This document shows positions 12,955-38,135 of a stretch of 64,000 nucleotides of DNA, in pieces. Each line of letters opens with the position of its first letter. Position 1 is the stretch's first letter. The position numbers and the translations under genes were made by a program. This DNA comes from Thelephora terrestris (lineage: Eukaryota; Basidiomycota; Agaricomycetes; Thelephorales; Thelephoraceae): NCBI GenBank assembly GCA_015956445.1, contig WIUZ02000019.1, positions 248,001-312,000 on the forward strand. Reading direction: 5' to 3'. The notes below the pieces were generated by a model. That model had not been told where the DNA came from, searched no databases, and saw only the letters and a list, made by a program, of their open reading frames with translations.

Positions 12955-15434
12955 TCAGGGAGTAGCGGGCACTTCCAACACCAACCGATTCCAATTGTCC
13001 AAGGCATCCTTCCTATAGTCGTCCATGCCCAATGAAGCGGGTATGTCGTCGTGGAAGAACCTCATCACGGATGGGAGTTCATTTGAGTATCTCGGCCAAG
13101 GCAGGATCGAACGAGGTGACATGGAGCGGCCGTTCGGGTCCATGTGGGTGATGAACTGGATGAAGTAGTCCGCCGTGATTCCGCCACTAAACGGATCCGC
13201 GAGGTCGCTGCTGTGAGCTGCACCAAGGTGTTCGAGACCTTTAAATCTCTCGCTCACTAGTTTCAATGATAAGATAAACGAGTCGGAAGGTGGAAGGAAG
13301 ATATTGGACATACAAAATACGTAGACGGGCTGCTTGTCGGATCGAGATTGGGCGAAATACCGACGGGCAGCGATGAACGCCATATCGCCGATAAACGCAG
13401 CCATGCGCTTGAATTGTGGTGAGAGCAGGTTCCGATCGCCTGTGTTAAACGGAGAGCCTTTCGTCGGGTCTGAACGAAACCGCGTCAACGCCAGCACGAG
13501 TACGACATCATGAATGTGTTGCCTACCATTTGGATATAAGCTCATGACCCTGTCCACTTCAGCCTCTGGCGCCCCTTTCATGTATGTCTCTTGAACGTAT
13601 TCTCTGACCTGAACGTCCGTGCTGGAAGGAAATTCAGTAAACTTGAGCAATAGGATGGAGATGGATGACCTTACGTGATGTTGGCGACTGCCAAAGCGAA
13701 CAGTGTACCTTCGTCATCCACATTGCCTGCGGAGGTTAAAAGTCAGCGTTTTGCAGATTATACCTCCTAAAGACCCCTTACCGATGAGGACGGGAACTTT
13801 TGTCACGCTCCCAGTCCGAACGAGAGAAATTGGGGTATCTGACAGGAAATCATTGTCGACGGTGATTGGCCATGTCAACGACAAGCCCTGCCACACGTCT
13901 GTCAGTTTTGAAGATCACCGGTGGTCAACACAACGAATAACCTTGTAGGTGAACATTCCTGGGCTCATATCTTCCACCCCTTGCTTCAACTTCTTGTATG
14001 GCACATCTCTCAAACATTCCAGCGTGTCATCCGCCCTAGCGCACCCCATATCACTCACAAGTCTGTCATAGTTTCGTTGACCACCTGAGATGTCCGTCGC
14101 CGTTTGGGGTGAGCCGGATTGCATGATCGCACCGCGGAAGAGTCCTTCGTTGTCACCTTGATTAGTGACAATTTGACTGCCAACGCTGATACCCCCCGCG
14201 CTCTGACCCCATCTGGATCCCGCAATGATTCCGAGTGATTAGTAGGAATCAAAAGATGAGATGAATGTGAATCGACGAACAGCGTGACCTTGGTGGGATC
14301 ACCGCCAAAGGCGCTGATATGCCTCTGCACCCATCGTAAGGCTTCTCGTTCTGATTGAGCCAGAGATCAGCAATCAGAGATCGGGGTACGGGGCTCAAAA
14401 CAACTAGACGTACGGTCTCGGAGTCCCAGGTTGCTCACGCCAGCCGCCTTCACTTCCTTCCCCGCAAGGAACCCAAATGCTGGTGGGGAAGGAAAGGTCA
14501 ATAAGCAAGATTACGTGGACCATGTGACGGACTTGCCGTTGAGCCTGAGGTGAAATTTGAAAGAGGGTAAACATCAATTGATGGGGAGGAGATCCTGTCC
14601 TCACCTATAGTTCATAGCCACAAAGATGATCGGTGTTCCCATCTCCACTGATCGAGCAACCACAGGTATACCATTATTTCTTGAAATACCGCCGAATTGT
14701 AGGCCGCCTGTGACAGATTGAATCCTTTTCACCCGATGTGGCGCATCCAATGAGAATGAACCAACCTCCAAAGAACCACTAGCCCCATCGTCACGTCAGT
14801 GCAACCTTTGAGAAGTGCAATGAAAAATATGACATACAACAACCACAGGAAATCTTGAATCTGGGGTCGCGCCCGCTGGCCGCACAATATCCAAATTCAG
14901 ACCTATGCAGTGGGAAGATCAAGAGGGTTTAATATGTCAAGCTGCGAACACAACTCACAATCTTCTGAGTCAGGATAAGCAGCCCTAATCATCTTGGTGT
15001 ATCCAACGGCGCCATCAGACAAGCCCTCAGGTGGGATGAGGTTTGGTGGCATCTGGGGGCAAGAGAACCCCGATTGGGTGGCAAGGATCCTGCCGGCATA
15101 AGAGGGAATGGGTTCCGGTTTGCGAAACCGTAATTTTCCAACGCTGTTTTGGCCATGAGATTATTTGGAGCGATTGTGGGCGAAAGGGAACACACGGCGG
15201 TCGGGCATATGGGATCCCCTGAAATGTCTCCGTTTGCCCTTGATGTTTTCCAACCAAAGTAGCACGATCGAGTCTGACCGTCGGCAGTGATGGGCCATCG
15301 TCCAAGGAATAGTGGGGCCTGCGCCCAAACCAGAAGGTATACCCACTCAAGACGATCAGCAAGCAGAGAAGCGATATTGATCCGCTAGAAAGGCGTTCGT
15401 TCAGAGAGTTCATATGGTCTCGGCTGACTGCCAT
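12955..15434 (-). CDS. Type-B carboxylesterase with N-terminal membrane anchor (copy 1)
   Basis: A carboxylesterase/lipase of the alpha/beta-hydrolase family. It has 14 exons: 15434-15196, 15143-14959, 14902-14838, 14778-14766, 14707-14605, 14544-14537, 14479-14414, 14350-14281, 14212-13942, 13887-13782, 13726-13675, 13621-13527, 13469-13314 and 13256-12955, giving 576 residues. An uncharged segment (ISLLCLLIVLSGYTFWF, residues about 19-35) followed by a basic patch suggests a type II membrane anchor. Then come FQGIPYARPPVGKLRFRKPE, SEDCLNLDIVRPAG, WFFGGGLQFGG (oxyanion loop) and MNYRLNAFGFLAGKEV. The nucleophile elbow is WGQSAGGISVGSQ, with Gln in place of the usual Glu, the acid is in GNVDDEGTLF, and the His is in AAHSSDLADPF. 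Exons of 13 and 8 bases are conserved in the paralogue at 34201-36852, and the intron after the 8-base exon uses a GC donor. The substrate is unknown. Confidence 0.88.
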
Positions 15435-18626: not shown

Positions 18627-20621
18627 ATGGTACGCTCACGTTGCCTGCGTGTTTATCGACGCAAATTTCGACCCGTCTTTTGTTCAGACCGTCTGTCAAT
18701 ACTTCCAACGAGGGGATTGTCGGTTTGGCGACAGGTGCAAGTATGAACATCGTCAAGACGGAAGACCACAGTTCGGTAGTGCGTGACAACTATCCTACGC
18801 CAATCCTCAATTCCGTCTGCTCATTTTTTCGATCCTTTTTAGATAAGACGTGGGTGAACAACAAGAACAATGCAAGCGAGTATGCATATGGGTGAGTACG
18901 GTGTCAGACCCTGCCCTTATCCCGTCGCAACCCTAACGAGACCCGTAGAGAGGATACAATGGGGAAGGACTTGAGACCCGGTGTGGAGAAACCTCTGTGG
19001 GGATTGTCATCATATGGTCCGGCAAAGTTCGAGCCCAACCTAATCTCCGGCTTGGATATGTCATTTGAGGAACTTCGGGTCAACGCAGTCACGGCCCTCC
19101 AGAGCGGTACACCTGCAGAATACGTGCGTCTTCATTCCTTTAGCATCTCCTGATCTCCCAGAGCGACTTGTTGAACGTGAAGGCCAAGTTTAGATGAAAT
19201 TCGAAGCAGAGAAGGTGGCTGCTGCTGATCAGGTCTACGCGAACGCGTTCAGCAATCTGAAGGACGCGTATAAACAAGCCACGGCCAACTCTGACAATCA
19301 AAAAGCAACTACAACATCAACCCAGCCAGCCTCGACGATAACACCGAGCCCTTTCGGACAGCCGCCAGCCGCTACAGGCTCGGGTTTCGGAGCGTTTGGA
19401 TCCACGACAGGTTCTGCATTTGGGTCTGGAAGTAGGACCTCAGCGTTCGGTTCTGGAGGAACCGGCTCCACGTTCGGATCTAATCCCCTCAGTCCGACCC
19501 AACCAAAACCCCCAGTTTTCGGCCAAACTCCCCAAACGGCGTCTGCGTTCGGTAATACCAACCCGCTCGGATCATCAGGTTCCGTCTTTGGGCAATCATC
19601 CATGTCGACACCAGCCCCTGCCTTTGGGACTACCAACACGCCCGGAACCTCTGGCGGTGCATTCGGCACAGGTTCTGGGGGTGGGTTCTCCGCTTTTGCC
19701 GGTTCTCAACCATCGGCGTTCGGGCTTTCAGCTGCGAACAACGCTGGTACCTCGGCGTTTACGCAACCCCAAAACAATACCCAGACAACCTCCGCTTTCG
19801 GCAACACTCCTACAAACACCTCGGTCTTCGGTCAGACCAGTCAACCGACCAGCGTTTTTGGAGGGGCTGGAGCCAATCCGCCTCAGTCCGTCTTCGGAAC
19901 GTTGGCCAACACAACAACTTCGGTATTCGCCAACCCCCCTGCGAACCCGCCGACCTCTGTGTTTGGAACGCCCCAGGACAACACTGCAGCTGTTTTTGGG
20001 ACCGCACAGAACTCCACCACGACCCCTGCCTTCGGCCAACCCTCAAATCCCACGCTATCTGCGTTCGGTAACACGCCACAGGCACCAGCATTCGGGCAAC
20101 CGTCCACACTGGGATCTGGAGGGTCGCAATCGGGAACAATCACACTCTCCGCCTTCGGTCCACCACCACCGACGTCGGTTTTCGGCACAACCTCGCAACC
20201 TACCACTTCCAGCGCATTTGGTACCACACCCGCAAACAATCCACTGAATCCCCCGGTCAGCTCTACGTTTGGAACGCCCCAAACGTCCTCAGTGTTTGGG
20301 CAAGCGACGCAGACAAACTCTCCGTTCGGGGCGCAACCCAGCACCTCTGCCTTTAGCAACCCGAACGCTTCCCAGCCTTCAGCATTTTCGGCGTTCGGGA
20401 GTACCCAGAACAAACCTTCGAAACCTGATCGCCCGAAGTCCGGCCCCCCAGATTTCCAAAACGCACCATCGAAGTATAAGCCTGGGAACTGTAAATACGA
20501 TGGGATGCTACCTCCGAACTACGCGGAGATGTTACCTGCGGACGTAAAGGCTGCTTTCGAGGCCCCCAAGTTTGAATGGGGACAGGTTCCGGAGTGGATC
20601 CCACCCGTGTCGTTCAGATGA
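18627..20621 (+). CDS. NUP42: FG-repeat nucleoporin with N-terminal CCCH zinc finger (Nup42 type)
   Basis: Nup42/NLP1 sits on the cytoplasmic face of the nuclear pore and works with Gle1 and the helicase Dbp5 in mRNA export. Exons are 18627-18629, 18688-18775, 18843-18891, 18949-19123 and 19194-20621, giving 580 residues. The first coding exon is the ATG alone. The finger follows at once as VCQYFQRGDCRFGDRCKYEH, a C-x8-C-x5-C-x3-H pattern. Residues about 45-110 hold RPGVEKPLWGLSSYGPAKFE and a helical segment. From about residue 155 to 510 the protein is Asn/Ser/Thr/Pro-rich with dozens of FG dipeptides, mainly SAFG, SVFG and AFGQ. It closes with APSKYKPGNCKYDGMLPPNY and FEWGQVPEWIPP, the conserved C-terminus that in this family contacts Gle1. 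Confidence 0.88.
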
Positions 20622-24347: not shown

Positions 24348-24802
24348 TTAGTTACCCATCGCAACCGTCCAGACGTCCAAGGCTCTCATGGCTCGAGATT
24401 GACCGCTGTTTGTCCATCTTTCCACTCACTTTGGAATAGGGTCCAAGGGTAACATCCTCCTTTTCGCGTTCGCCGCCTAGGCAGTGTCTGCATCACGTTA
24501 CTTATCCCCATATGGGTCACGGCTTTCCAAAGACAGACTTCGCTTTCGGCTTCGTTCGAAACCACCGCCGACTCTCCAAGATGGCCCGCACCACTTTGAC
24601 TTGGTCTCTTTTGTCTCCTCGGACGGATTTCTTTTCTGCGTGGTTCCACACATCATGGACGGCCCAGCGAACACACGAAGCCACAGAATTTCTTGAGCTT
24701 TGTTTGCTCCACGGCAGCTTCCCGCACTTCTAAAGCTACTCGACCGTGCTCGTTGTTCTCCATGGCTCTCACATCTCGTCCGCTTGGCCACCCCAGCTCA
24801 GG

Positions 24803-24809
24803 TATAAAT
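24803..24809 (+). promoter_or_regulatory. TATA box of 191-residue gene, copy B
   Basis: TATAAAT lies 100 bases before the ATG at 24903 and is conserved at the same distance in the second copy (31486). The surrounding GGTATAAATCTCAGCGG is identical in both. Confidence 0.65.
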
Positions 24810-24902
24810 CTCAGCGGAAATGCAGCTCATACCGACATCTTCACCTCACAACCCACTCCTCGTCTTCACTTGCACTTCAGAGCTTAGCTCCTCCGCACAG
24901 AA

Positions 24903-25612
24903 ATGACACTCCATCAACCCGTTAAGATGCAGCAATCCACATCTTATTCTACCTTGCTACCCTATCCTAACCTCCCACCCCCGATGGTTGATGGGCCGGT
25001 AGGAGCTCGTGTCGTTCCAATTATCCCTTACAAGCACTCCTCGAAATGGAACTCCACCGTAGGCAGACACCGCGAACCGTTCGTCGTGACCTTCGACACG
25101 CGTGGCATGCCGGAAGGTTATGGAGTTAAGCACGGGGATTTGACTTCCTACAGCTTGATGATCATGAACACTGTGATCGTCCGCGGCGGCGATACCGTAC
25201 GCTTCCCAACTCCGGGCAAGAAGATCCAGCTCAGAATAGTGGTAAGTTACACCGGGAGCGCTCAAACCGTCAGTGGGCAATTTGTCTGACGTGTGTATAT
25301 CGTTTTATTACAGTGGCCAGGATACGATTCGGTAGACTTTTCATCTATGATCGATATCCAAGAGATCACAGTCAGCGAATTGGCCGGGAGAGTTGCCTCT
25401 CTCTACACAGATTATTTCCAGGTCCGATCCCCCGCTGCATCTTTTCATGACTGCTGGCTGATGGTGCGACTCTTTCCTTTTAGATTGCACGCCAACGCAA
25501 CTGCACTGAATACGGATGGTCCTTCACTGCCGAAGCGCTCGCGACTCTCCGTGTCCTCAACATCCGTAACGTGTATGATAACGTTTTCCAGGCTGAAGTT
25601 GCTTTCGGTTGA
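24903..25612 (+). CDS. Conserved fungal protein of unknown function, 191 residues (copy B)
   Basis: Exons are 24903-25241, 25314-25421 and 25484-25612. The protein has no signal peptide or membrane segment. It starts with a variable 20 residues, then NLPPPMVDGPVGARVVPIIP and KWNSTVGRHREPFVVTFDTR, the GMPEGYGVKHGDL motif, GKKIQLRIVWPGYDSVDF, IDIQEITVSELAGRVASLY and RQRNCTEYGWSF, ending in VYDNVFQAEVAFG. It looks like a small soluble beta/alpha domain known as a lineage-specific family in Agaricomycetes, for which I cannot name a function. Both copies are intact with identical exon lengths (339, 108 and 129 bases), while their neighbours decay, so the protein is likely under selection. It is convergent with the DM9 gene remnant. 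Confidence 0.78.
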
Positions 25613-25850
25613 TCAGTCATCCTGGCCGATTGGCTCTCGCGGACCCACGACCGAGAGAACGAGCGCAAGAGCTCATAAGAACAACACATCTATATTTATT
25701 CCAAGCTCTCGCTGGCACCAGCCGGCGACTACACTCCTGCATCCACATTTTCTTATTTAAACGGCTTTTATTTGCACCCGTAGTTTGTAGACAGACCACT
25801 CATCTTCCATTCGCAAAACACCCTTTTTGTTGTTGTAGTTGACAGGTTCT

Positions 25851-25885
25851 CTTCGCATTTCTCCTTATGAAGGAGAAATGCGAAG
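25851..25885. repeat. Perfect 16-bp-stem hairpin, copy B
   Basis: CTTCGCATTTCTCCTT is followed by the 3-base loop ATG and then the exact reverse complement. It lies about 240 bases after the stop of the 191-residue gene. The same stem is present at 32535-32569. Confidence 0.9.
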
Positions 25886-26030
25886 ATAATCGAAGTCAGA
25901 GAGTTGACCCCCATGAATAAATGTATTTTTGACCATATTTCGAGGTTGTGACGGCGAATTTGAGAGATTTAGCAAGGGTGGCCTATCGATCTTGGTGGGC
26001 CGCGAAGTCAACACGGCCAGAATCCTAAAC

Positions 26031-26934
26031 TTGGCGCCCGGACGCTTCCGCGCTAACCTCCACGTGACGAGCACCGAAGTTTTGAGGGTTCGGCACCCCA
26101 CGGGTCTCAATCTAGCGAACCGCGCGTGGGTCGGGGCCGACCAGGATCTCGTACTCGTTGAAGGCGTGGCTCATGTGCTGTCGTCCGATTTCTGCACCCT
26201 GCCTCAGATGCTTTCCCGCCTTCCCGACGTTTAAAACCAAGAATGCGTCAGGTAAAACACAAAGAAACTGACGCCGCTTGTGAAAGGGAAAGCCATAAAT
26301 ATTCCGTCCTGAAAACACAGGTAATCCTCAATCACGCCACTTCATCAAGAAGGCAACGATAAGGACCGAACGCACCCCACGTACGCTCTCGCAACGTACA
26401 GCACGTTACCGCCCTCCTTTCCCGCCTCGACCGCGCCGCCAGGACTTTCGTGTCCCTTCACCAACACCCACGTAGTAGGCGCACGGGGACCGCTCCGACG
26501 AAACTCGTCAGCACGCTTCCGAGCATCCTTCATCCACCTCTCGAGCGAATCAGGGATTTGCGCGGGTACTGGAACGGAGAGGGCGGATGCAATCGGTATG
26601 AGATCGATCGTGGAGAATTTTGTAGGATGTTTCACTCACCTTGTGAGTGCTCATACACACCGCGGGATGCTTGGCATTGTTGAGGAGGCTCGCGATGTTC
26701 TTCTGAGCCTAGGCGCTGGTACAGCGCACTGGTAGAAACCCCTGGAATCCAACCGCTCTGCGGTAGATACGATGATCGCGATTCCCGATGGCCGTCAGAT
26801 CTATGTCGGATGACAGGCAGGGAGAAAGCTCATACCTGGGAGGTATGGCTCTGGGCAATCCTGAACTTCTGTCCTTGGTACTCTACCACTTCTCCAGTGT
26901 CGTACGCAACCCATGCTTCCCATTGGCGTGTCAT
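26031..26934 (-). pseudogene. Decayed CBM5/12-DM9 gene (copy B)
   Basis: Homologous to the intact gene at 32822-33966. The first three exons are still readable: MTRQWEAWVAYDTGEVVEYQ, then SGWIPGVSTSALYQ, then the stretch ending LYVARAY. After that the gene is broken in several ways. One base is missing at the exon 3 donor. The acceptor of exon 4 has changed from GTAG to TTAA. A TAG replaces a Trp codon after PDPRAVR. The last part of exon 4 and the two final exons are deleted near 26031. All lesions are absent from the other copy, so this is a pseudogene by comparison within the window. Confidence 0.78.
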
Positions 26935-27208
26935 GATGGTGGACGCTTAGAACATACGGTGGCTGAGATGAGATTGGGCGGTCAATTTGCGCCTAGTACT
27001 TAAGCTTATCAATCCTGTGTCCATTCCTCAGGCGAATCCCCGAGGTTCTCTCTCCTGGGACCAGCTCTCTCCTCGCCTTTTTCTCTATTTCTAGCGTGGT
27101 GCGCTCACTACGCCTCAACACAGCAGTCACCTTGCACATTCGCCAGGACGTAGGCCAAGCCACATTAAGGTTATCGTAAATGTCTCGGACTACAACGAGG
27201 ATTATGAG

Positions 27209-27215
27209 TATAAAC
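27209..27215 (+). promoter_or_regulatory. TATA box of the esterase pseudogene
   Basis: TATAAAC lies 105 bases before the ancestral ATG at 27314. The intact inverted copy has lost it: the equivalent bases near 37257 read GCATAAGC. Confidence 0.5.
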
Positions 27216-28432
27216 TCTCTCTGCTGCTCTAAATCCCTTAATCAGCCCCAGATACTACTACCGGTCACAAAGGCTTTCTTCTGAAACCACTGCTAGCAGT
27301 CCGTTCCGCTCAGTATGTCTCCATCGACAGCTTTCGCTTCCTACTCTCTAAACCCACAAAGTTTATATCATGTACCTTCGCCCTCGTCTCCAAACTACCA
27401 ACTACCCTTCGCTCCCCAGCGCGAAAGTGGTCAACAACTCTAACCGCGGACCAACTTTGTTCCCGTTCTCACCTCAATGTTCAGCCTGCTCGCCGATATC
27501 ACCCCATGTTACCGCAATAGCTACCTTCTCTGCCTGTGAAATCCCCACGGTCTGCAACATTGCTCTTTACCTCACACTTAACCCTCTTTCCCATTGAGAA
27601 GGTGAAGACGGTGGCGGACAGCGTTTGGGATGAACACCCCGACGCAGACCCCATGGATTTCGAACTGGGCTCAAAAAGGTCTTTCTGGAGCAGAACATAC
27701 AGGTGGGAAGTCTCTTGATCCCACGATACAAATCTGGTCGAGTTTGCACATCAGCGCTCTGCGCATTTGCTGATGAGTGTTGACGAGGGTGAAAGCGGTG
27801 TTCTCTGCAGGCCCCGTGATCTCACCGAAAATGCCTTGTGGGACATACTTACGAGAAAAGGAACGGAAGACCGGCGCTCTCCCATCTGTTGCAAACTAAT
27901 CACCGCAACGCCAAGGTGTGGCAATGCGCTTGTTTCCTATTGTTGCAGTATTCGTGACGCGGCCTTCGAACCGTTGCTGACTGCAGACTCAATCCTCGGG
28001 GAAACGTCCTTACTGGCAGAACGAATGCCCCGAATGTGCTATCTACGTCGGGTTACCCATCTAGGACCCGCTCGACGCGGTACCGGGACGACAGCTCCCT
28101 CGGAACATCCGCGAGGCATCCTGAGAGTGTGGCTAGCGGTTTACCACTACTACCAAGGGGAGCGGTACGCGGAACTCAAATCCATCCGGTGAAAACTAAA
28201 CAGGTCACCCTGATTGAATCACCATGCAACGTGGCATCGACATTACTCTTAGAAACCCGCTTAAAGCTTTAAAGGCGCACGAGACTTTGGTAATCGAACG
28301 AGAGATTGAGAAACACATCGTAAGGGCTTTTTTTTTTCAATTTCAAGGTTTACAGCTTAGCCTAAATGGCGATACAGAGAAGACTATAAAGAAGGCATTT
28401 TTGCCGTGCTGCGTGGTGCGCGCGCTTAGCGC

Positions 28433-28575
28433 TTAGCAGTTGCAGTTATCCTTGGTGCAGGAGCAGCTGTGGGTGCGGGTCAGCATAGGTCCCGCACGTG
28501 AACACAAAACCGGGTGGCATACTTCTGGGAGCATCCACAGCTGGATTGAGCACAGTTGCAGTTAGAGCAGGCCAT
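28433..28575 (-). CDS. Metallothionein (short Cys-rich metal-binding protein)
   Basis: Two exons on the minus strand, 28575-28511 and 28466-28433, joined by a 44-base intron with a CTGAC branch-like site, encode 32 residues. Nine are cysteines, arranged C-x2-C-x-C-x4-C-x-C-x7-C-x-C-x4-C-x-C. The protein starts MACSNCNCAQSSCGCS and ends CSCTKDNCNC. There are no aromatic residues except one Tyr at the splice region. Such C-x-C patterns bind Cu(I), Zn or Cd by thiolate clusters and buffer metals in the cytosol. The intron donor (GTTTTG) is not ideal, but it alone restores the C-x-C reading with a proper stop. A TATA box lies 160 bases upstream. Metal preference cannot be told from sequence. Confidence 0.8.
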
Positions 28576-28733
28576 GTTAATGAGCAAGAAGGGGTTTGCT
28601 GGTAAGAGGGAGGGAGGGAGGTTAGAATATGCCGTGGCGAAAAACAGAGGTGCTGACTGTTTGTTAGACGATTTGGTGGTTGAGAGTGAGAGAAGGTGGG
28701 AGACTGAGGAAAACTTGGGGAGTTTCTGGTGAA

Positions 28734-28741
28734 CTTTTATA
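28734..28741 (-). promoter_or_regulatory. TATA box of the metallothionein gene
   Basis: TATAAAAG on the minus strand, 160 bases before the ATG, followed by a pyrimidine-rich leader. It is a strong consensus TATA, as expected for an inducible gene. Confidence 0.6.
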
Positions 28742-31485
28742 GCCTGAGCTGCCCTGGTTTCTCACGTTTGGAATAGTGCCCCTGCCATTTGGGATGGCTC
28801 GGAGGCGGATCGCCTTTCCCCTTCCTGCCACTCCGAAGCGTTCTAGCGTCATTTCCACATGCTCGCCCGGCCCGCAGCAAGATATACAACTTACTGCACG
28901 ATCCTTCAACACATCCCGTGATTCGAGTCTCCTCAACCTCAAACGACCCCCCGCACACACACTGGGGCATCCTTCACGCCCCAGGCAAGAGCTGCGTTCC
29001 ACTGACTACGGCCAATTCGCTTCGGTCTCAGTCTTCTACAATCACTTTATGCCACTCATGTCAAATGGAAAGCAGGTTTGTTATGGATACCCCGCCCCCA
29101 ACATCCTCCTCTTACCCTATGCGGTGAGCCGAAAGCCCTAGCCTACCCCACACGCGATTACGGCAGAAAGGAACAGGGGCAATTCTGTTCTTGATACTTA
29201 CGACCGGTTGGCATGTTTCGCATCCTCCCCAATTCCAGGACCAGTGGAAAACATGAGAGACGGGCGGGGACCTTGTTGTTCCATGGCCATACTCACTCGA
29301 TCTTTCTTTCGTCGTCGGGCCGCTGAAACTGCAGGAATAACTAATCAAATATTGCTCTTGGATCACCACAAGACTTTCGCTGGAGAGCCACAGTTCTGAC
29401 TTCGAAGTTCGCCGTGAGCGTTACACCAAACATAGTGTGGTAGCTCATCCCCGAAATTCACACTAGCCTTACGTTACAGTGCTGATATGATGTTGATGCC
29501 CCAACGAAACACGCAGGAATTCACATGGTCCTTCAAAAAGTTTTTTCAGCCAACCGCCATCCCATAAACGCTGACTTAATTTACGGAGTCTCTTCATTTG
29601 AGTGCCTTCCAAAGACGTTGGTCCCATTACGGCCAACCCGGCGCTGAGCGGCCACCAGCCTTCTCTACAGCCAATTCCGAATTGGTCGTACGTTTTACAC
29701 TGTCTCGGGGAACTTTCTCCTCGTTAGGGATCGTTTTCCTGGAAGAACTTCTCCCTGAGTATGTGAGGTCGCCTATACTTGTCTCATGGAAGCACTTAGG
29801 ACTCCGCCTAGCGTTATCGGTGGCATGTGAATATGTAAGTTGCCGGGCTTTCCAAGGTTTCAAATTACCCCGCCCTCATGAACTTCTTAGAATGGATTAC
29901 ATCATCTATCTTCAATTCCCCGCGCTTCTGTGGGTAGAGTTGTTATCTGACCTTCCTAGGAATCCTTGCCATAACCACGATATTTCGGCTAAGTATCAGC
30001 GACTCCCGACCGGTAGACATCATAACTCCACACCCAGAGATTCAGGTAGATGCTGCGACCTTCATTGGTACATGATCTTCCGGTGGCGTAGACGATTTTT
30101 TCGGCATTCCGTTCGCCAAGCCTCCGTGAGTCGGGACCTGATGGCACATGTAAGGTTTTTCCGCAATCTCAGTGTCACACAGGACTGGGGACCTCTGATT
30201 CCGCCATCCTGAACCATACGACCTATATTCCGGTACAATCGACGTTACAAAGTCCGGCTATCTTGCACCCAACTTCGACCCAAAGTCGTCATCCCCGAGG
30301 GCCCCTCTATACCAGCAACCAGTTATGCGGGGGGAATACATGCAGTCGACGACGACTCGGAAGATTGTAAGCCTCGACCGCCTTCATCTGATCTTTGGCC
30401 TGACATGGGATGCACACCGCGGCGTTCCATGCTTGACTCTGGACGTAATAAAACCAGCCTTCGTTGATCCAGACGTGAGGCTTCCCGTCGCTGTTGTAAG
30501 TGCATCCGAACCCCGACGTTTATTTTCTGACCTCCTAGTCCTCTGCTCCAGTAGTTCTTCGGAGGTGTGTATACCCATGAGGCGCAACCCTGCAGGTCGA
30601 ATATCAATTCATGTTTTCTTCCCACAGGCGGGTTTAAATTCGGCGGCACAATCAAGAACAACGGCATCCCCGTGGTCTCACGATCCTTAGAGCTGAGAGA
30701 GCTCATCATCTTTGTGGTAATGAACTATCGATGAGTGGAGAGTATACATGATCCCTCAAACTAGAAGTTGACCGACAGCCCCTCAGACTCAACGATGCGT
30801 CCCCTTCCATATTACCAACTCTCCCCCATCTTTACGTTAATCGTCCATCACTAGCTTTCGGGTTCCCGGGAAGCCAGGAAGTAAAGGATGCATGGATAGG
30901 AAATTTCTGCCTGGATGACCGTCAGTCCCGAGACTCGGTCTCGTCGTTACATTCGGAGTTTACTTATTGCCCCTTTCGTTCAGAGCGTGAGGCACTGCGG
31001 TGGGTACAACGACATATTGAGTCATTCGGTAGCGATCCCACAAAAGTTTACTCATCACAACTGTTCAGACGTCCAAGACGCACTCACGGCTCGAGATTTA
31101 CCGCTGTTTGTTTATCTTTCCACTGACTTTAGTATAGGGTCCAAGAGTAACATCCTCTTTTACGCCGCCATGCAGCGTTTACATTACCGTGTTACCTATC
31201 CGCATATGGGTCACGGGTTTCCAAATGCAGACTTCGCTTTAGGCTTCGTTCGAAACCACCAACGACTCTCTTAGATGGCCCGCACCACTTTGACTTGGTC
31301 TCTTTTGTCTCCCCGGAAGGATTTGTTTTCTGCGTGGTTCCACACATCATAAACGGCCCAGCGAACACACGAAGCCGCAAAGTTTCTTGAGCTTTGTTAG
31401 CTCCACGGCAGCTTCCCGCACTATCAAAGCTACCCGACCATGCTCTTTGTTCTACATGGCGTCCGCATGGCCACCCCAGCTCAGG

Positions 31486-31492
31486 TATAAAT
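31486..31492 (+). promoter_or_regulatory. TATA box of 191-residue gene, copy B'
   Basis: TATAAAT, 98 bases before the ATG at 31584, with the same flanks as in copy B. Confidence 0.65.
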
Positions 31493-31583
31493 CTCAGCGG
31501 AAAGGCAGTCCATACCGACATCTTCACCTCACAATCCACTCCTCGTCTTCACTTGCACTTCAGAGCTGAGCTCCACCACAGAA

Positions 31584-32293
31584 ATGACTTCATATCAACT
31601 TCTGAGGACGCAGCCATGCCTATCTTACTCCACCTTGCTACGAAATCCTAACCTTCCACCTCCGCTGGTTGCTGGGCCGGCAAACGTTCGTATCGTTCCG
31701 ATCCTACCTTACAGGCACTCTTCCAAATGGAACTCTACCGGAGGCAGACGCCGCGACCAATTTGTCGTAACCTTCGACAAGCGCGGCATGCCAGAAGGTT
31801 ATGGAGTCAAGTACGTGGATTTGGCTTCCTACAGCCCGATGGTCATGAAAACTGCGATCGTCCGCGGCTGCGATATCGTGCGCTTCCCAACTCCGGGAAA
31901 GAAGATCCAGCTCAGAATCGTGGTAAGTTACACCGGGAGCATCCAAACCGTCAGTGGACAATTTCTCTGACGTGTGTATATCGTTTTATTACAGTGGCCT
32001 GGATATCATACAGTAGACTTTTCGTCGATGATTGATGTTCAGGAGATTACAGTCGGCGAATTGGCCGTGAGAGTCGCTTTTCTCTACAGAGATTATTTCC
32101 AGGTTCGATCCACCGTTGCATCCCATCATGACTGCTGACTGGTGGTATGACTCTTTCCTCTTAGGCTGTATGCCAACGCCTCAGCACTGAAGACGGATGG
32201 TCCTGTACTGGCGAAATGCTCGACACTCTCCACTTCGTTTGCATCCGTAATTTTTACGACAATGTGTACCAGGCTGGAGTCGTCCTCGGTTAA
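31584..32293 (+). CDS. Conserved fungal protein of unknown function, 191 residues (copy B')
   Basis: Exons are 31584-31922, 31995-32102 and 32165-32293, with the same lengths and phases as the copy at 24903. Motifs are kept: NLPPPLVAGPANVRIVPILP, KWNSTGGRRRDQFVVTFDKR, GMPEGYGVKYVDL, GKKIQLRIVWPGYHTVDF, IDVQEITVGELAVRVAFLY and YDNVYQAGVVLG. Differences from the other copy are mostly scattered single substitutions, many changing residues, with no frameshift or stop. The two are therefore diverging functional paralogues. The function is unknown. It is convergent with the intact CBM5/12-DM9 gene, with the hairpin between them. Confidence 0.78.
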
Positions 32294-32534
32294 TCAGTCT
32301 TCCTGGCTGATTGGCTCTCGCGGACACATGACCGAGAGAACGACCGCGCGAGTTCATAAGAATTTCTATTTATTCCAAGCTCTCGCTGGCGCCAGCCGGC
32401 GACTACACTCCTGCATCCACATTTTCTCATTTGAACGGCATTTATTTGCAGCCGTAGTTTATAGGCAGACCACTCATCTTTCATTCGCAAACCACCACAA
32501 ACCACCATTTTCGTTGTTGTAGTTGACAGGTTCT

Positions 32535-32569
32535 CTTCGCATTTCTCCTTATCAAGGAGAAATGCGAAG
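32535..32569. repeat. Perfect 16-bp-stem hairpin, copy B'
   Basis: Same stem as at 25851 with the loop ATC instead of ATG. It lies between the convergent 191-residue gene (ends 32293) and DM9 gene (ends 32822). Confidence 0.9.
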
Positions 32570-32821
32570 ATAATCGAAGTCAGAGAGTTGACCCCCCTGA
32601 ATAAATGTATTTTTAACCATATTTCGAGGTTGTGACGGCGCCTTTTGAGAGTTGGCAAGGGTGGCCCATCGATCTTTGTGGGACGCAAAGTCAACACGGC
32701 TGGAACTCCAGAATCTAAACTTCGAATCGGTGTAGGCGTGCCACGTGTATTTTTCTTCACGTATGTAGTTTTACAATTTTCTTCCTGGCCTGTATTTACT
32801 CCACGCTCTCTCTCTTGGATA

Positions 32822-33966
32822 TCACGCATAGCAAAGAACACGATACTCCTGTAATGAGCAGGTTCAGCGATCGGGAAACATCACACCTCCTGAGCGCAAA
32901 ACAAACCTGGAACGCCAACTCTCCGTCGCCATAAACAAGGTATGCGCCTACGGGAAACGAAGTTAATAATCCCAGCGAACGATCAATAAATTCCCGCATC
33001 GAGGGAAACCAAACGTACCAGATGCACCCCCGCTGGCTCTTGCGGGATGGATACCACCGTTATGGCTGACCTGGGTGATGAAGATTTGGCGCCCGGACGC
33101 GTCCACACCAACCTCCACGTGGCGAGCACCGAAATTTTGAGGGTTCGGCACCCCACGGGTCTCAACCCAGCGAACCGCGCGTGAATCGCCGACCAGGATC
33201 TCGTACTCGTTGAACGCGTGGCTCTTGTGCTGTCGTCCGATTTCCGCACCCTGCCTCAGATGCTTTCCCGCCTTCCCGACGTCTACAACCAAGACCACGT
33301 CAGGTGAAATGAATGGACGCCAGTTGTGAAAGTGGAAGCCATACAGATTCCGTCCTGGAAACACGTACGATGGTCAATCACGTTCATCGAAGAGACAACG
33401 ATAAGGACCGAACACACCTCCACGTACGCTCTCGCAACATACAGCACGCTATCGCCCTCCTTTCCGGCCTCGATCGCGCCGCCAGGAATTTCGTGTCCCT
33501 TCACCAACACCCACGTAGTAGGCGCACGGGGACCGCTCCGACGAAACTCATCGGCGCGCTTCCGAGCATCCTCCAACCACCTCTCGAGCGAATTAGGGTT
33601 TTGCGCGGGTACTGGAACGGAGAGGGCGGATGCAATCGATATGAGATCGATCGTGGAGATGGTTTTGTCGGATGTTTCACAGTTCACTCACCTTGTGGGT
33701 GTTCATACACACCGCGGGATGCTTGGCATTGTTGAGGAGGCTCGTGATGCTCTTCTGAGCCTAGGTGCTGGTACAGAGCAGCGGTCGAAATCCCCGGAAT
33801 CCAATCGCTCTGTGATAGATACTGTCATCGCGATTCCAGATCCAGGAGGTCGGATATCAGCTCATACCTGAGAGGTATGACCCTGGATAATCTTGTACTT
33901 CTGTCCTTGGTACTCTACCACTTCCCCAGTGCCGTACGCAACCCCTGACTCCCAGTGGCGTGTCAT
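32822..33966 (-). CDS. CBM5/12-like chitin-binding plus DM9 (DUF3421) repeat protein
   Basis: Six exons on the minus strand, 33966-33868, 33809-33692, 33611-33414, 33282-33019, 32947-32907 and 32848-32822, give 248 residues. Residues 1-50 look like a family 5/12 carbohydrate-binding module: HWESGVAYGTGEVVEYQGQK, YKIIQGHTSQSDWIPG, ALYQ. The rest is a pair of DM9-type units: TTWVLVKGHEIPGGAIEAGK, LYVARAY, VGKAGKHLRQGAEIGRQH, AFNEYEILVG, then a second unit with GRQIFITQVSHNGGIHPARA and a final FQEYRVLCYA. There is no signal peptide, so an intracellular lectin-like role is possible. DM9 proteins in animals bind mannose; no fungal role is established. The exon 3 donor (GTTCGG) was chosen because it alone fits the phase. 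Confidence 0.75.
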
Positions 33967-34200
33967 GATGGTGGACGCTTAGAACACACCCAATCCAAAA
34001 ATTGGCGTATATGTAATACTCCACGATTTCTCAAACTCAAGCTCAAGCTCTGGTCACGGGTGCTGGCAAGCACGTGGATACAGCGCACCCCCTTGCACCC
34101 GCCATGGATCCCAAGCGGGAATGCAGAGAAGTTGGAAGCAAAGAAAAGAATGTATATGATGCAAAGTTTAGAGATTCTCACTCGAGATAAATATCATGCT

Positions 34201-36852
34201 CTACATCCTATAGCGTTTTGCCATCTCAACAAACAATTCTATCTGTTCCTTTCTGAAATTGTCGTCCGTCACGATCACAGAGGGCTCATTGTAATCCGGT
34301 AGGAACGTTAACAACCGTAGATTTTCTGTGTCGTACGTTGGCCATTCGACCTGGGCGCGAGGACTTGAGGAGCCGTTCGGATCGAGCGTGTTGATGAACC
34401 GAATGAAGTAGTCGGCCATGACCCCTCCTCCAAAAATGTCCGCTAAGTCGCTGCTGTGCGCCTACAAAAGTGACATAAGTTCATAGGTTATCGCCGGAAT
34501 CTGAAATCGAAGGAACCACGTACGGTTCCAAGATCCGGGAATCCGTCAAGCTGCCTGCTTACTAAATGGGACGCTGGTGGTTAGTCATGCGACCCGGGAA
34601 AGCACATAGAAGGTAGCTTACAGTATGACCATGTATTTTGTCTAGGTGAGAGGTTTCTCAAAAGCATGCGACGGGGGGCCTGAAATACCAGATCTCCTTG
34701 AATCGAAGACAATCGTTTCCACTGAGCTGTGACTTGATTCGCTTCTCCGGTTCCGTAGGGAGACCCTTGGGTGGGGTCTGCAATATAACGTTGAGAGTGG
34801 AGGCGCAGGACCAGCAACGAGACGTACCATAGGGATAAAGTTCCAACAGCCTGACCATCTCCTCTTCCGTTGCGTTTGGTAGGTGGAAGTGACGAAGATA
34901 CCTCACGAGCTCTGATTCCGTCCTAAATGCATGATCAAACTCCCGAAGAATGGGGCCCTCCAGCAGATAACGTACTTGATACCACCCAGTGAGAGAGTGA
35001 ACAGTGTCGCCTCATCGTTCACCACGCCTACCATCACGTTTGAACCGATACACATCGAAGTAGAGGAACACGAATTACCATTGATGACAGGAACTCTGGC
35101 TACCCGCCCGTCTTGGATCATATCCACCGGTGAACTTGCTATGAAGGCACCGTCCGGTCGAGGTATCCACGAAAGGGCCATGGACTACAATAAATGATAA
35201 ATCCAGGTGGGCCATATTTTGTGTGGCAAGAGCCCCTACCGTGTAGTCAAAAATCCCCATACTCGCCTCAATCGCAGTTCTTAGGGTCTCGTAAGGTGTG
35301 CGCCGAAGACAGTCCAACGTATCATCCGTATGAAGGCAGGAGGTACGCAAAACCAAGTCATCGTAGTGCTTCTGTCCGAGTGTTACGTCACCGATAGGAA
35401 GTGGTGCACCTGATTGCATGATCGCCCCACGAAACAACCCTTCCGGATCGCCTTCGTTTGCGACAAGTTGGAGTGACACCGACATAGCCCCAGCGCTTTG
35501 GCCCCATCTTCACGAGCGAATCAGGATGAGCCATGTAAACCTGAGACGTGTCCAGTGATGGGCACCCACATGGTAACTTTTGTGGGATCGCCACCGAATG
35601 ATCCAATATGCCGCTGTACCCACCGCAGCGCCTCACGCTCTAAAAGAAAGGGGCAATGAATAAACTCGGAATGTAACGACGAGACCGAGGCTCGGGACTG
35701 ACGGTCATGCAGGCCGAGGTTTCCTATCCCTGCATCCTTTACTTCTTGGCTTGCCAAGAACCCGAAGGCTAGTGATAGGCGCTAAACGTAAAGATGTGGG
35801 AGAGTTGGTAATACGCAGGAGACGTACCGTTGAGTCTGAGGGGCAGCCAGTCAACTTCTAGTATGAGATCATGTATAATCTCCACTCACCGATAGTTCAT
35901 TACTACGAAGATAATGGGCTCTCCCAACTCTAAGGATCGTGAAACCACGGGGATGCCATTGTTCTTAATTGTGCCGCCGAACTGAAACCCGCCTGTGGGA
36001 AGAAAACACAACCGAAATTGGTATTTGACCTGCAGGGTTGCGCCTCATGGATATACTCACCTCCGAAGAACCACTGGAGCACAGGGCTAGGAGGTCAGAG
36101 GAGAAAGGTCGGGGTTCGGATGCACTTACAACAGCGACGGGAAGCCTCACGTCTGGATCAACGAAGGCTGGTTTTATTACGTCCAGAGTCAAGCCTGGAA
36201 CGCCGCGGCGTGCATCCCATATCAGGTTAAAGATCAGGTGAAGGCGGGCGAGGCTTACAATCTTCCGAGTCGTCGTCGACTGCATGTATTCCTCCCGCAT
36301 AACTTGTTGCTGGTATAGAGAGGCCCTCGGGGATGACGACTTTGGGTCGAAGTTGGGTGCAAGATGGCCCGGACTTTGTAGCGTCGATTGTACCGGAATA
36401 TAGGCCGTATGGTTCAGGATGGCGGAATCGGAGGTCCCCAGTCCTGTGTGACACTGAGATTGCGGAAAAACCTTACATGTGCCATCAGATCCCGACTCAC
36501 GGAGGCTTGGCGAACGGAATGCCGAAAAAACCGTCTACGCCACCGGAAGATGTACCAATGAAGGTCGCAGCATCTACCTGGATCTCTGGGTGTGGAGTTA
36601 TGATGTCGACTGGTCGGGAGTTGCTGATACCAAGCCGCGGTGCGTAAAAATAAAATATCGTGGTTATGACAAGGATTCCTAGGAAGGTCAGCAGAGCGCT
36701 GATGTGCAAACTCGATCAGATCTTCGTATCGTGGATCAAAAGACTTCCCACCTGTATGATTTTCTCCAGAGAGACCTTTTTGAACCCAGTTCGAAATTCA
36801 TGGGGTCGGCGTCGGGGTAGTCATCCCAAACACTGTCCATCACGGACTCCAT
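34201..36852 (-). CDS. Type-B carboxylesterase with N-terminal membrane anchor (copy A', intact)
   Basis: Sixteen exons: 36852-36752, 36710-36501, 36443-36259, 36194-36130, 36073-36061, 35992-35890, 35835-35828, 35768-35703, 35639-35570, 35507-35240, 35184-35079, 35027-34976, 34922-34828, 34777-34622, 34561-34524 and 34461-34201, giving 598 residues. A short acidic/basic N-terminus is followed by a transmembrane segment (ALLTFLGILVITTIFYFY, residues about 39-56), so the catalytic part should face the lumen or outside. Family blocks are FFGIPFAKPPTGDLRFRHPE, SEDCLTLDVIKPA, WFFGGGFQFGG, NYRLNAFGFLASQEV, nucleophile elbow WGQSAGAMSVSLQ, acid in NDEATLF and His in AHSSDLADIF. Eight exon lengths are identical to the gene at 12955-15434. 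The upstream ATG at 37160 is followed by a stop after nine codons, so translation probably starts at 36852. Confidence 0.85.
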
Positions 36853-37549
36853 CTTCTCAATGGGAGAGAGAGCTCCTAAGTATGAGGTAACGAACGATGT
36901 TGCAGACCCTGGGGATTTCACAGGCAGAGAAGGTGAATATTGCGGTAACAGGGGTGAACCCGGCGAGCGGGCTGAACATTGAGGTGAGGTCTTCGGGGAG
37001 AATGGGAACAAAGTTGATCTGCGATTAGGGTTGCCGACCACTTTCGCGCTGGGACGGGGAGCAATGGGTGGTTGATAGTTTGGAGACAAGGGTGAAGGCA
37101 CATGGGGTAAACTTTGTGGGTTTAGAGCTTAGGAATCGAGGGCTATCGATGGAGACATACTGAGCGGAACGGACTGCTGTTTTCAGAAGAAAGCCTTTGT
37201 GACCGGTCGTAGTGGTATCTGAGGCTGGTCAAGATATTTAGAGGAGCAGAGAAAGCTTATGCTCACAATCCTCGTTGTAGTCCGAGTCATTTACGTTGAC
37301 CTCAAGGTTTCTTGGCCGACGTCCTGGCGAATGTGCACGGTAACTGTTGTGTTGAGGCGTAGTCATAAGTCTGTCTCGAACCTAGAGCGCACCGCGCTAG
37401 AAATAAAGAGGAAGGAGAGGAGAGAACTGGACCCAGCCAGCTAAAGAAAAGGACAAAGGGAGAGAGAGCCTCAGGGATTCGCCTGAAGAATGGACATAGG
37501 ATTGACAAGCTTAAGTAGGCGCAAATCGACCGCCCAATCTCATCTCAGC
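34201..37549 (-). repeat. Duplication block A' (inverted, complete esterase copy)
   Basis: Inverted relative to block A (26962-31043). It covers the former promoter, the N-terminal tail region and the whole esterase gene. Downstream parts (34201 to about 35570) have no counterpart in block A because that copy is truncated. Confidence 0.85.
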
Positions 37550-37655: not shown

Positions 37656-38135
37656 TCAACCTGCAACATCATTTCTTCCCTCCTGTTCCTCTCTTTGCTG
37701 GCTGGAAACGGCGCTTGCTGTTTGCGTTCGCTTGGTAGCATCTTCGAATGATGGCGGGTTCTCGTAGGGGGGTGGAGCCGTGACCAACGGGGCGGGAATG
37801 GGAGTGACTCTAAACTCTTCATCCGTTCTCCCTCTCTCCACTTGTCCTCGGCTCGCTGCTCTTCTGCGGTTCACGAACTTTGCATACAACACAGAGGCCA
37901 AGAAGAGAAGCACGATAACGCCTATGCTGACACCGACGATAAGCCCAGCTGTGTATCTGCCGTTGGATCGATCCCTGTCCTGGAGAGGAGGTTGGTGATG
38001 CTGAGCCAAGGCGAACCTTCCCCAGTGTGAGCCTAAATGGAGAACACAAACGAAGGAACACTTACGGGAGAAACAGTGGTATCCAAGCTGTTGGCCGAAG
38101 TAGAAGGAAGAAGACCATCTGTTCTGGTGTCGAGG
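37656..38135 (-). CDS. Single-pass membrane protein with PPxY tail (3' part of model)
   Basis: The last exon, 38000-37656, encodes a juxtamembrane HHQPPLQDRDRSNGR and a clear transmembrane helix (GLIVGVSIGVIVLLFLASVL). A basic stop-transfer (KFVNRRRAASRG) and a cytosolic tail with APPPYENPP, a PPxY motif that WW-domain Rsp5-type ubiquitin ligases bind, follow. An upstream exon ending at 38066 (GLLPSTSANSLDTTVSP) joins in phase and is Ser/Thr-rich, as expected of an extracellular stalk. I could not rebuild the N-terminus or signal peptide, so the start coordinate is a working limit. Agaricomycete genomes contain many such stalk-TM-PPxY proteins of unknown role. Confidence 0.5.
   Translation of the reverse strand, partial: PRHQNRWSSSFYFGQQLGYHCFSRKCSFVCVLHLGSHWGRFALAQHHQPPLQDRDRSNGRYTAGLIVGVSIGVIVLLFLASVLYAKFVNRRRAASRGQVERGRTDEEFRVTPIPAPLVTAPPPYENPPSFEDATKRTQTASAVSSQQREEQEGRNDVAG

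Follow-up and report, generated by a model that had tools for sequence, protein, structure and literature searches.

In the 64 kb stretch of the Thelephora terrestris genome analysed here (called the window; it lies in contig C11), four related segments, B, A, B′ and A′, occupy positions 24352 to 37549 and carry whole or broken copies of three genes: a 191-residue gene, a DM9 gene and an esterase gene. We conclude, with a probability of roughly 0.8, that an old and incomplete tandem duplication, with rearrangement at a later stage, gave rise to this locus.

Arrangement of the copies

To compare the window with itself, we performed blastn on the whole sequence, covering both strands. This resulted in four main diagonals in the region, two direct (B/B′) and two inverted (A/A′), with scores of 812 to 1854 bits. 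A preliminary description of the locus had proposed the order B, A and B′ direct with A′ inverted, and the diagonals bear out both this order and its coordinates (Table 1). It had also claimed that both pairs align over kilobases; the diagonals are there, but that of A (26962 to 31048) against A′ (37549 to 35575, inverted) is not continuous, as A holds 2184 bases (27763 to 29946) absent from A′. About 390 bases of B′ are likewise absent from B. Ungapped identity was 87.0% between B and B′ (2214/2545), 87.5% between the left part of A and A′ (692/791) and 92.2% between the right part of A and A′ (1011/1096).

The end of A is joined directly to B′ at 31048, so that the units are adjacent head-to-tail copies, as in a tandem segmental duplication. 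At this junction both parent sequences, the A′ esterase and the left edge of B, contain the bases AGTTACC; when two places in the window were drawn at random, they had 7 or more bases in common in 0.00038 of draws, a figure that holds for one fixed pair of places.

We then searched the segments against the organism's own genome (40.6 Mb, 60 contigs); only the best candidates were scored, and the matches given from these searches are lower bounds. B (24348 to 27000) matched only this locus, namely B itself, B′ and short pieces. The segment 33990 to 37549 matched only itself and both parts of A, and within it 33990 to 35574, which carries the 3′ half of the esterase gene, is single copy at the sensitivity of this search. 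A matched A′, six places on contig C17 and, over its metallothionein part, weaker ones on C59, C16 and C58. A neighbouring 4 kb stretch searched as a control matched itself and gave one 92-base match. A search of the same genome for 5.8S rRNA gave no match; its short introns and gene families point to a fungus, probably a basidiomycete.

An incomplete tandem duplication in which the truncated copy decays and the other is kept is a general pattern. The locus shares with incomplete tandem gene duplication and one-sided copy loss its direct units, a breakpoint inside a gene, a truncated copy that is decaying and another that is retained. Unlike in a plain case, half of its second unit is inverted, and its first unit contains an insertion from another contig; our literature search found no paper combining incomplete tandem duplication with inversion.

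Table 1. Features of the duplicated locus, in window coordinates
Feature	Position	Strand	Description
B	24352-26957	+	Unit-1 copy of 191-residue gene and DM9 gene region; matches 31048-33989 at 84-85% with gaps (blastn)
B′	31048-33989	+	Unit-2 copy; direct repeat of B
B/B′ left diagonal	24352-26017 ~ 31048-32700	+	blastn self-match
B/B′ right diagonal	26031-26957 ~ 33086-33989	+	blastn self-match
A, left part	26962-27762	+	Inverted match to 37549-36691; 5′ part of dead esterase copy
A, right part	29947-31048	+	Inverted match to 36691-35575; middle part of dead esterase copy, cut at 31048 by tandem junction
Inverted segment of unit 2 (A′ and single-copy stretch)	33990-37549		Whole esterase gene; ends at 33990 and 37549
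Tandem-duplication junction	31040-31056		Esterase to left, B′ to right; parents share 7 bases
191-residue gene, copy B	24903-25612	+	Exons 24903-25241, 25314-25421, 25484-25612; open spliced frame
191-residue gene, copy B′	31584-32293	+	Exons 31584-31922, 31995-32102, 32165-32293; open spliced frame
Broken DM9 copy in B	26027-26700	-	Frameshift, changed intron acceptor, in-frame stop, C-terminal part missing (alignment to B′)
DM9 gene, copy B′	32963-33760	-	Probably intact, with a provisional 5′ end and a non-consensus donor in one intron
Open esterase gene (A′ and 33990-35574)	34201-37366	-	18 exons, 735 amino acids; hand-made model
Insertion in A	27763-29946		2184-base copy of C17:499096-501245; empty site in A′
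Open metallothionein gene in insertion	28433-28575	-	Exons 28575-28523, 28466-28433; 28 amino acids, 9 Cys

Fates of the three genes

The esterase gene is open only in the second unit, as the preliminary description had it. Our model, with splice sites picked by hand to follow the family, contains no stop, and 17/17 of its introns are GT...AG. Residues 223-705 match the Pfam COesterase family PF00135 (E = 1.5e-84, 285.3 bits against a cut-off of 27), and the best solved relative is the sterol esterase 4be4 (E = 3.9e-111). The predicted protein shares the COesterase domain and the GxSxG element with the fungal sterol esterase/C. rugosa-type lipase family (PF00135; PDB 4be4, 1crl). Unlike that family, it begins with an N-terminal tail of about 175 residues followed by one hydrophobic stretch ahead of the catalytic domain, which by eye suggests that the enzyme is likely membrane-anchored. 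Among the 60 of 158 PDB matches listed, all start at residue 212 or later, save for two to cholinesterases that start at 184. A minus-strand open reading frame (ORF) at 37101-36736 was considered as a separate gene and rejected, as it is an N-terminal esterase exon in the model.

The copy in A lacks a start codon and differs from A′ by 16 indels; nine of these fall in coding exons of A′, and three of the nine are not multiples of three. An interruption follows 27762, and the copy stops at 31048, short of the exon that encodes the GxSxG serine. We conclude that the unit-1 esterase was truncated at birth by the duplication breakpoint, without its catalytic half. The copies had been described as now being sorted: their fates are indeed unequal, but the unit-1 esterase was not lost by later sorting alone, since the breakpoint at 31048 cut the gene.

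Two further observations concern this gene family. A second COesterase gene lies in the window at 12997-15407 on the minus strand, the same strand as A′, about 20 kb from the first and with about 30% protein identity to it. The own-genome search also gave a cluster of COesterase matches at C23:1.88-2.14 Mb.

For the DM9 gene, the last ORF of the B′ copy matches PF11901 (E = 5e-8, 33.3 bits against a cut-off of 26.2) and belongs to that family; the upstream pieces in B′ and B score 15.2 and 14.8 bits, below the cut-off. The claim that this gene is intact only in B′ stands for B, where alignment to B′ shows a broken copy. The B′ gene itself is probably intact, a qualification due to the upstream intron, which needs a non-consensus donor for an open frame. 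The genome search reported two DM9 matches in all, and the one elsewhere (C12:2593164-2593460) was rejected as a close paralogue because its translation was not close by eye.

Both copies of the 191-residue gene, in B and in B′, consist of three exons with an open frame, in agreement with the preliminary description. It is probably a diverged relative of DUF6741, a kinship that we consider likely, not strong. The DUF6741 profile (PF20526) gave 13.8 bits for copy B against a cut-off of 27, and no match for copy B′. The argument for kinship comes from a DUF6741 gene on contig C9 of the same genome: in hand-made models, both introns lie at corresponding places and in the same phase, and local alignment to it scored 52 (B) and 53 (B′) over 36 columns, scores that 0/1000 shuffles reached (best shuffle 50 and 51). 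No sequence match to the protein was found in PDB at E up to 10, no further gene copy in the own genome at E up to 0.01, and no paper naming DUF6741 or DUF6699 in our literature search. A 43-base match in inverted orientation between B (25847-25889) and B′ (32531-32573) lies downstream of the gene; it may reflect a hairpin that each copy has retained.

Divergence of the 191-residue pair

To determine how the retained pair has evolved, we calculated nonsynonymous (dN) and synonymous (dS) divergence. The proteins are 69% identical, with dN 0.178, dS 0.431 and a pairwise dN/dS of 0.41 (codon-bootstrap range 0.27-0.63), which suggests constraint on at least one copy. The exons contain point differences only, with no indels. 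They differ at 116/576 bases, about double the divergence in the remainder of B/B′ (208/1956; p = 1e-8), a faster change than the surroundings that the earlier account of this gene had missed. Identity in 60-base windows falls at the start codon (0.97 to 0.69) and recovers at the stop codon (0.67 to 0.88). Some windows depart from a strictly exon-limited pattern: one in exon 1 stands at 0.93, and three outside the gene (26272-26331, 26752-26871) at 0.72-0.78. Intron 1 differs at 5/72 bases and intron 2 at 11/62 (exons versus introns p = 0.03).

Codon positions 1, 2 and 3 of the pair differ by 0.15, 0.19 and 0.26, and fourfold sites at 21/69. Compared with the surroundings, divergence is higher at position 2 (p = 0.0008) but not clearly so at position 1 (p = 0.07); third positions are more divergent than those of the DM9 and esterase pairs (50/192 versus 51/516; p = 2e-7). 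Hypermutability of CpG sites was rejected as the source of the excess, which stays when these are left out (79/460 versus 158/1630). The faster change at amino-acid sites could reflect diversifying selection; such selection alone does not account for the higher synonymous rate. Older allelic divergence, or gene conversion confined to the flanks, is a possible source; as for conversion, the flanks hold no long identical tracts, the longest run being 61 bases. The specific proposal that the two genes have been selected to differ, with a coding divergence, synonymous sites included, older than the duplication, which may have joined long-separated alleles, strikes us as distinctly unlikely.

Introns more alike than exons are also described for duplicated viperid three-finger toxin genes, whose exon segments have been switched, according to PMC2474615. 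Unlike exon-segment switching as given there, the 191-residue pair has point differences only, and the likeness is one of pattern, with no kinship.

An inserted metallothionein gene

The preliminary account of A had missed that its 2184 extra bases come from another contig and contain an open metallothionein gene. By blast, 27774-29948 matches C17:501245-499096 at 91%. Homology to this donor ends at the right border of the insertion and 11 bases inside the left one, and in A′ the esterase sequence is uninterrupted. The empty site in A′, the ends of homology and the C17 donor together indicate that DNA was copied from an array on C17 into the dead esterase copy. For the same reasons of donor and borders, we rejected a deletion in A′ as the origin of the extra piece. 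The intron was copied too, which argues against a route through mRNA. By eye, the piece lacks the marks of a transposon insertion: we saw neither terminal repeats nor a clear target-site duplication, with 1-4 shared border bases at most and unrelated ends; a mobile element lacking both features is a possible vehicle.

Between the inserted gene and its donor, 0/87 coding bases differ, against 136/2042 in the rest of the insertion (p = 0.006), which points to constraint after copying or to later conversion. By eye, the 28-residue product fits the heptaCys motif C-x4-C-x-C-x2,3-C-x-C-x4-C-x-C of agaricomycete metallothioneins, as given in PMC12508003. It has this motif and small introns in common with the short metallothioneins described there; here the products are 28 amino acids long, and the genes are arrayed on C17 with one copy dispersed to C11. 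A 32-residue reading of the inserted gene gave no Pfam match. The array (C17:488500-504500) holds at least three open 28-residue genes, at 490735, 496987 and 500451, and a doubtful one at 494177; it also contains a 2 kb repeat, 82% alike. Among the weaker matches on C59, C16 and C58, the C59 site was the sole place inspected, and a pattern scan there gave no metallothionein gene.

Order of events and competing histories

The duplication had been called recent, and the divergence speaks otherwise. Copies that are 87-92% alike ungapped are not recent: outside the 191-residue exons 208/1956 bases differ between B and B′, 79/701 non-coding bases differ between A and A′, indels between the latter number 16, and dS of the kept gene is 0.43. 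The insertion differs from its C17 donor at 136/2129 bases, less than B/B′ (p = 1e-6) and less than non-coding A/A′ (p = 5e-5), so that it would be younger than the duplication if rates are alike. These comparisons give a relative order only, without a clock, and we offer no dates in years.

The ancestral order would have been the 191-residue gene, the DM9 gene on the opposite strand and the esterase gene. As the junction suggests, a head-to-tail duplication would then have fused mid-esterase sequence to the left end of B at the 7 shared bases, leaving unit 1 with a 3′-truncated esterase and unit 2 with the whole gene. By parsimony, the whole esterase gene of unit 2 (33990-37549) would have been inverted at some undated point. 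The empty site in A′ and the C17 donor show that DNA with a metallothionein gene, intron included, was copied from the C17 array into the defunct unit-1 esterase, by divergence after the duplication. The esterase and DM9 gene of that unit decayed, both 191-residue genes stayed open and the inserted metallothionein coding sequence was kept. One esterase and one DM9 gene may serve the locus today; the 191-residue pair would be growing apart, perhaps functionally as well as in sequence, and the metallothionein gene would be an extra metal-binding copy.

Several points weigh against this history. It is drawn from one genome only, so the ancestral order and the choice of which unit flipped rest on parsimony; the inversion has no date; and the introns of the gene models were placed by hand. 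A dS of 0.43 in the 191-residue gene exceeds the 10-11% of its surroundings, and a single duplication date does not explain this. The present junction differs slightly from the 7 shared bases and has changed since, and the chance figure given for it applies to one fixed pair of places.

Haplotypes may be very diverged in fungi with two nuclei, and the locus is known from the assembly alone, so two haplotypes of one locus might have been joined end to end in error. We hold such an artefact to be highly improbable: it would yield co-linear copies with matching ends, whereas here the ends differ and one half lies inverted, 7 bases are common to the parents where the units join, a piece from another contig sits in one copy, decay is one-sided and the neighbouring 4 kb are single copy. 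It is also very unlikely, in our judgement, that the inverted order is ancestral, with unit 1 flipped and its 3′ esterase part deleted later. The second esterase gene, at about 15.4-13.0 kb on the minus strand like A′, is in keeping with that order, but the scheme calls for one more deletion, with its end precisely at the left boundary of B′, and gives no reason why B at its left edge and an esterase exon should have bases in common. Template-switching repair can copy in distant segments as well, and the bases shared at the tandem junction would suit a single complex event of this kind that produced duplication and inversion together. We regard this as unlikely, though with some chance of being true: by the counts above, the duplication predates the C17 copy, so the insertion at least was a later event; the inversion may yet have been part of the initial one.

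Two other ORFs lie outside the duplicated segments. One, just beyond A′ (37656-38009, minus strand), has a sub-threshold match to SARAF (21.8 bits against 30.8); the other, at 19194-20621, is rich in FG repeats and nucleoporin-like by eye.

Read as an old, incomplete and rearranged tandem duplication, the locus is a compact case of duplicate-gene fate, set by breakpoint position for the esterase, by decay for the DM9 gene and by retention with fast divergence for the 191-residue gene; a dead gene copy also served as the landing site for a functional-looking metallothionein gene. It is a well-preserved example of known processes, ordinary genome evolution save for the fast-diverging kept gene, and the exon-limited divergence of that pair is the part of most specialist interest. 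If the proposal of long-separated alleles were true, two alleles of a gene under balancing or diversifying selection may both have become fixed on a single chromosome as the 191-residue pair, and the genes next to them would merely have undergone sorting.

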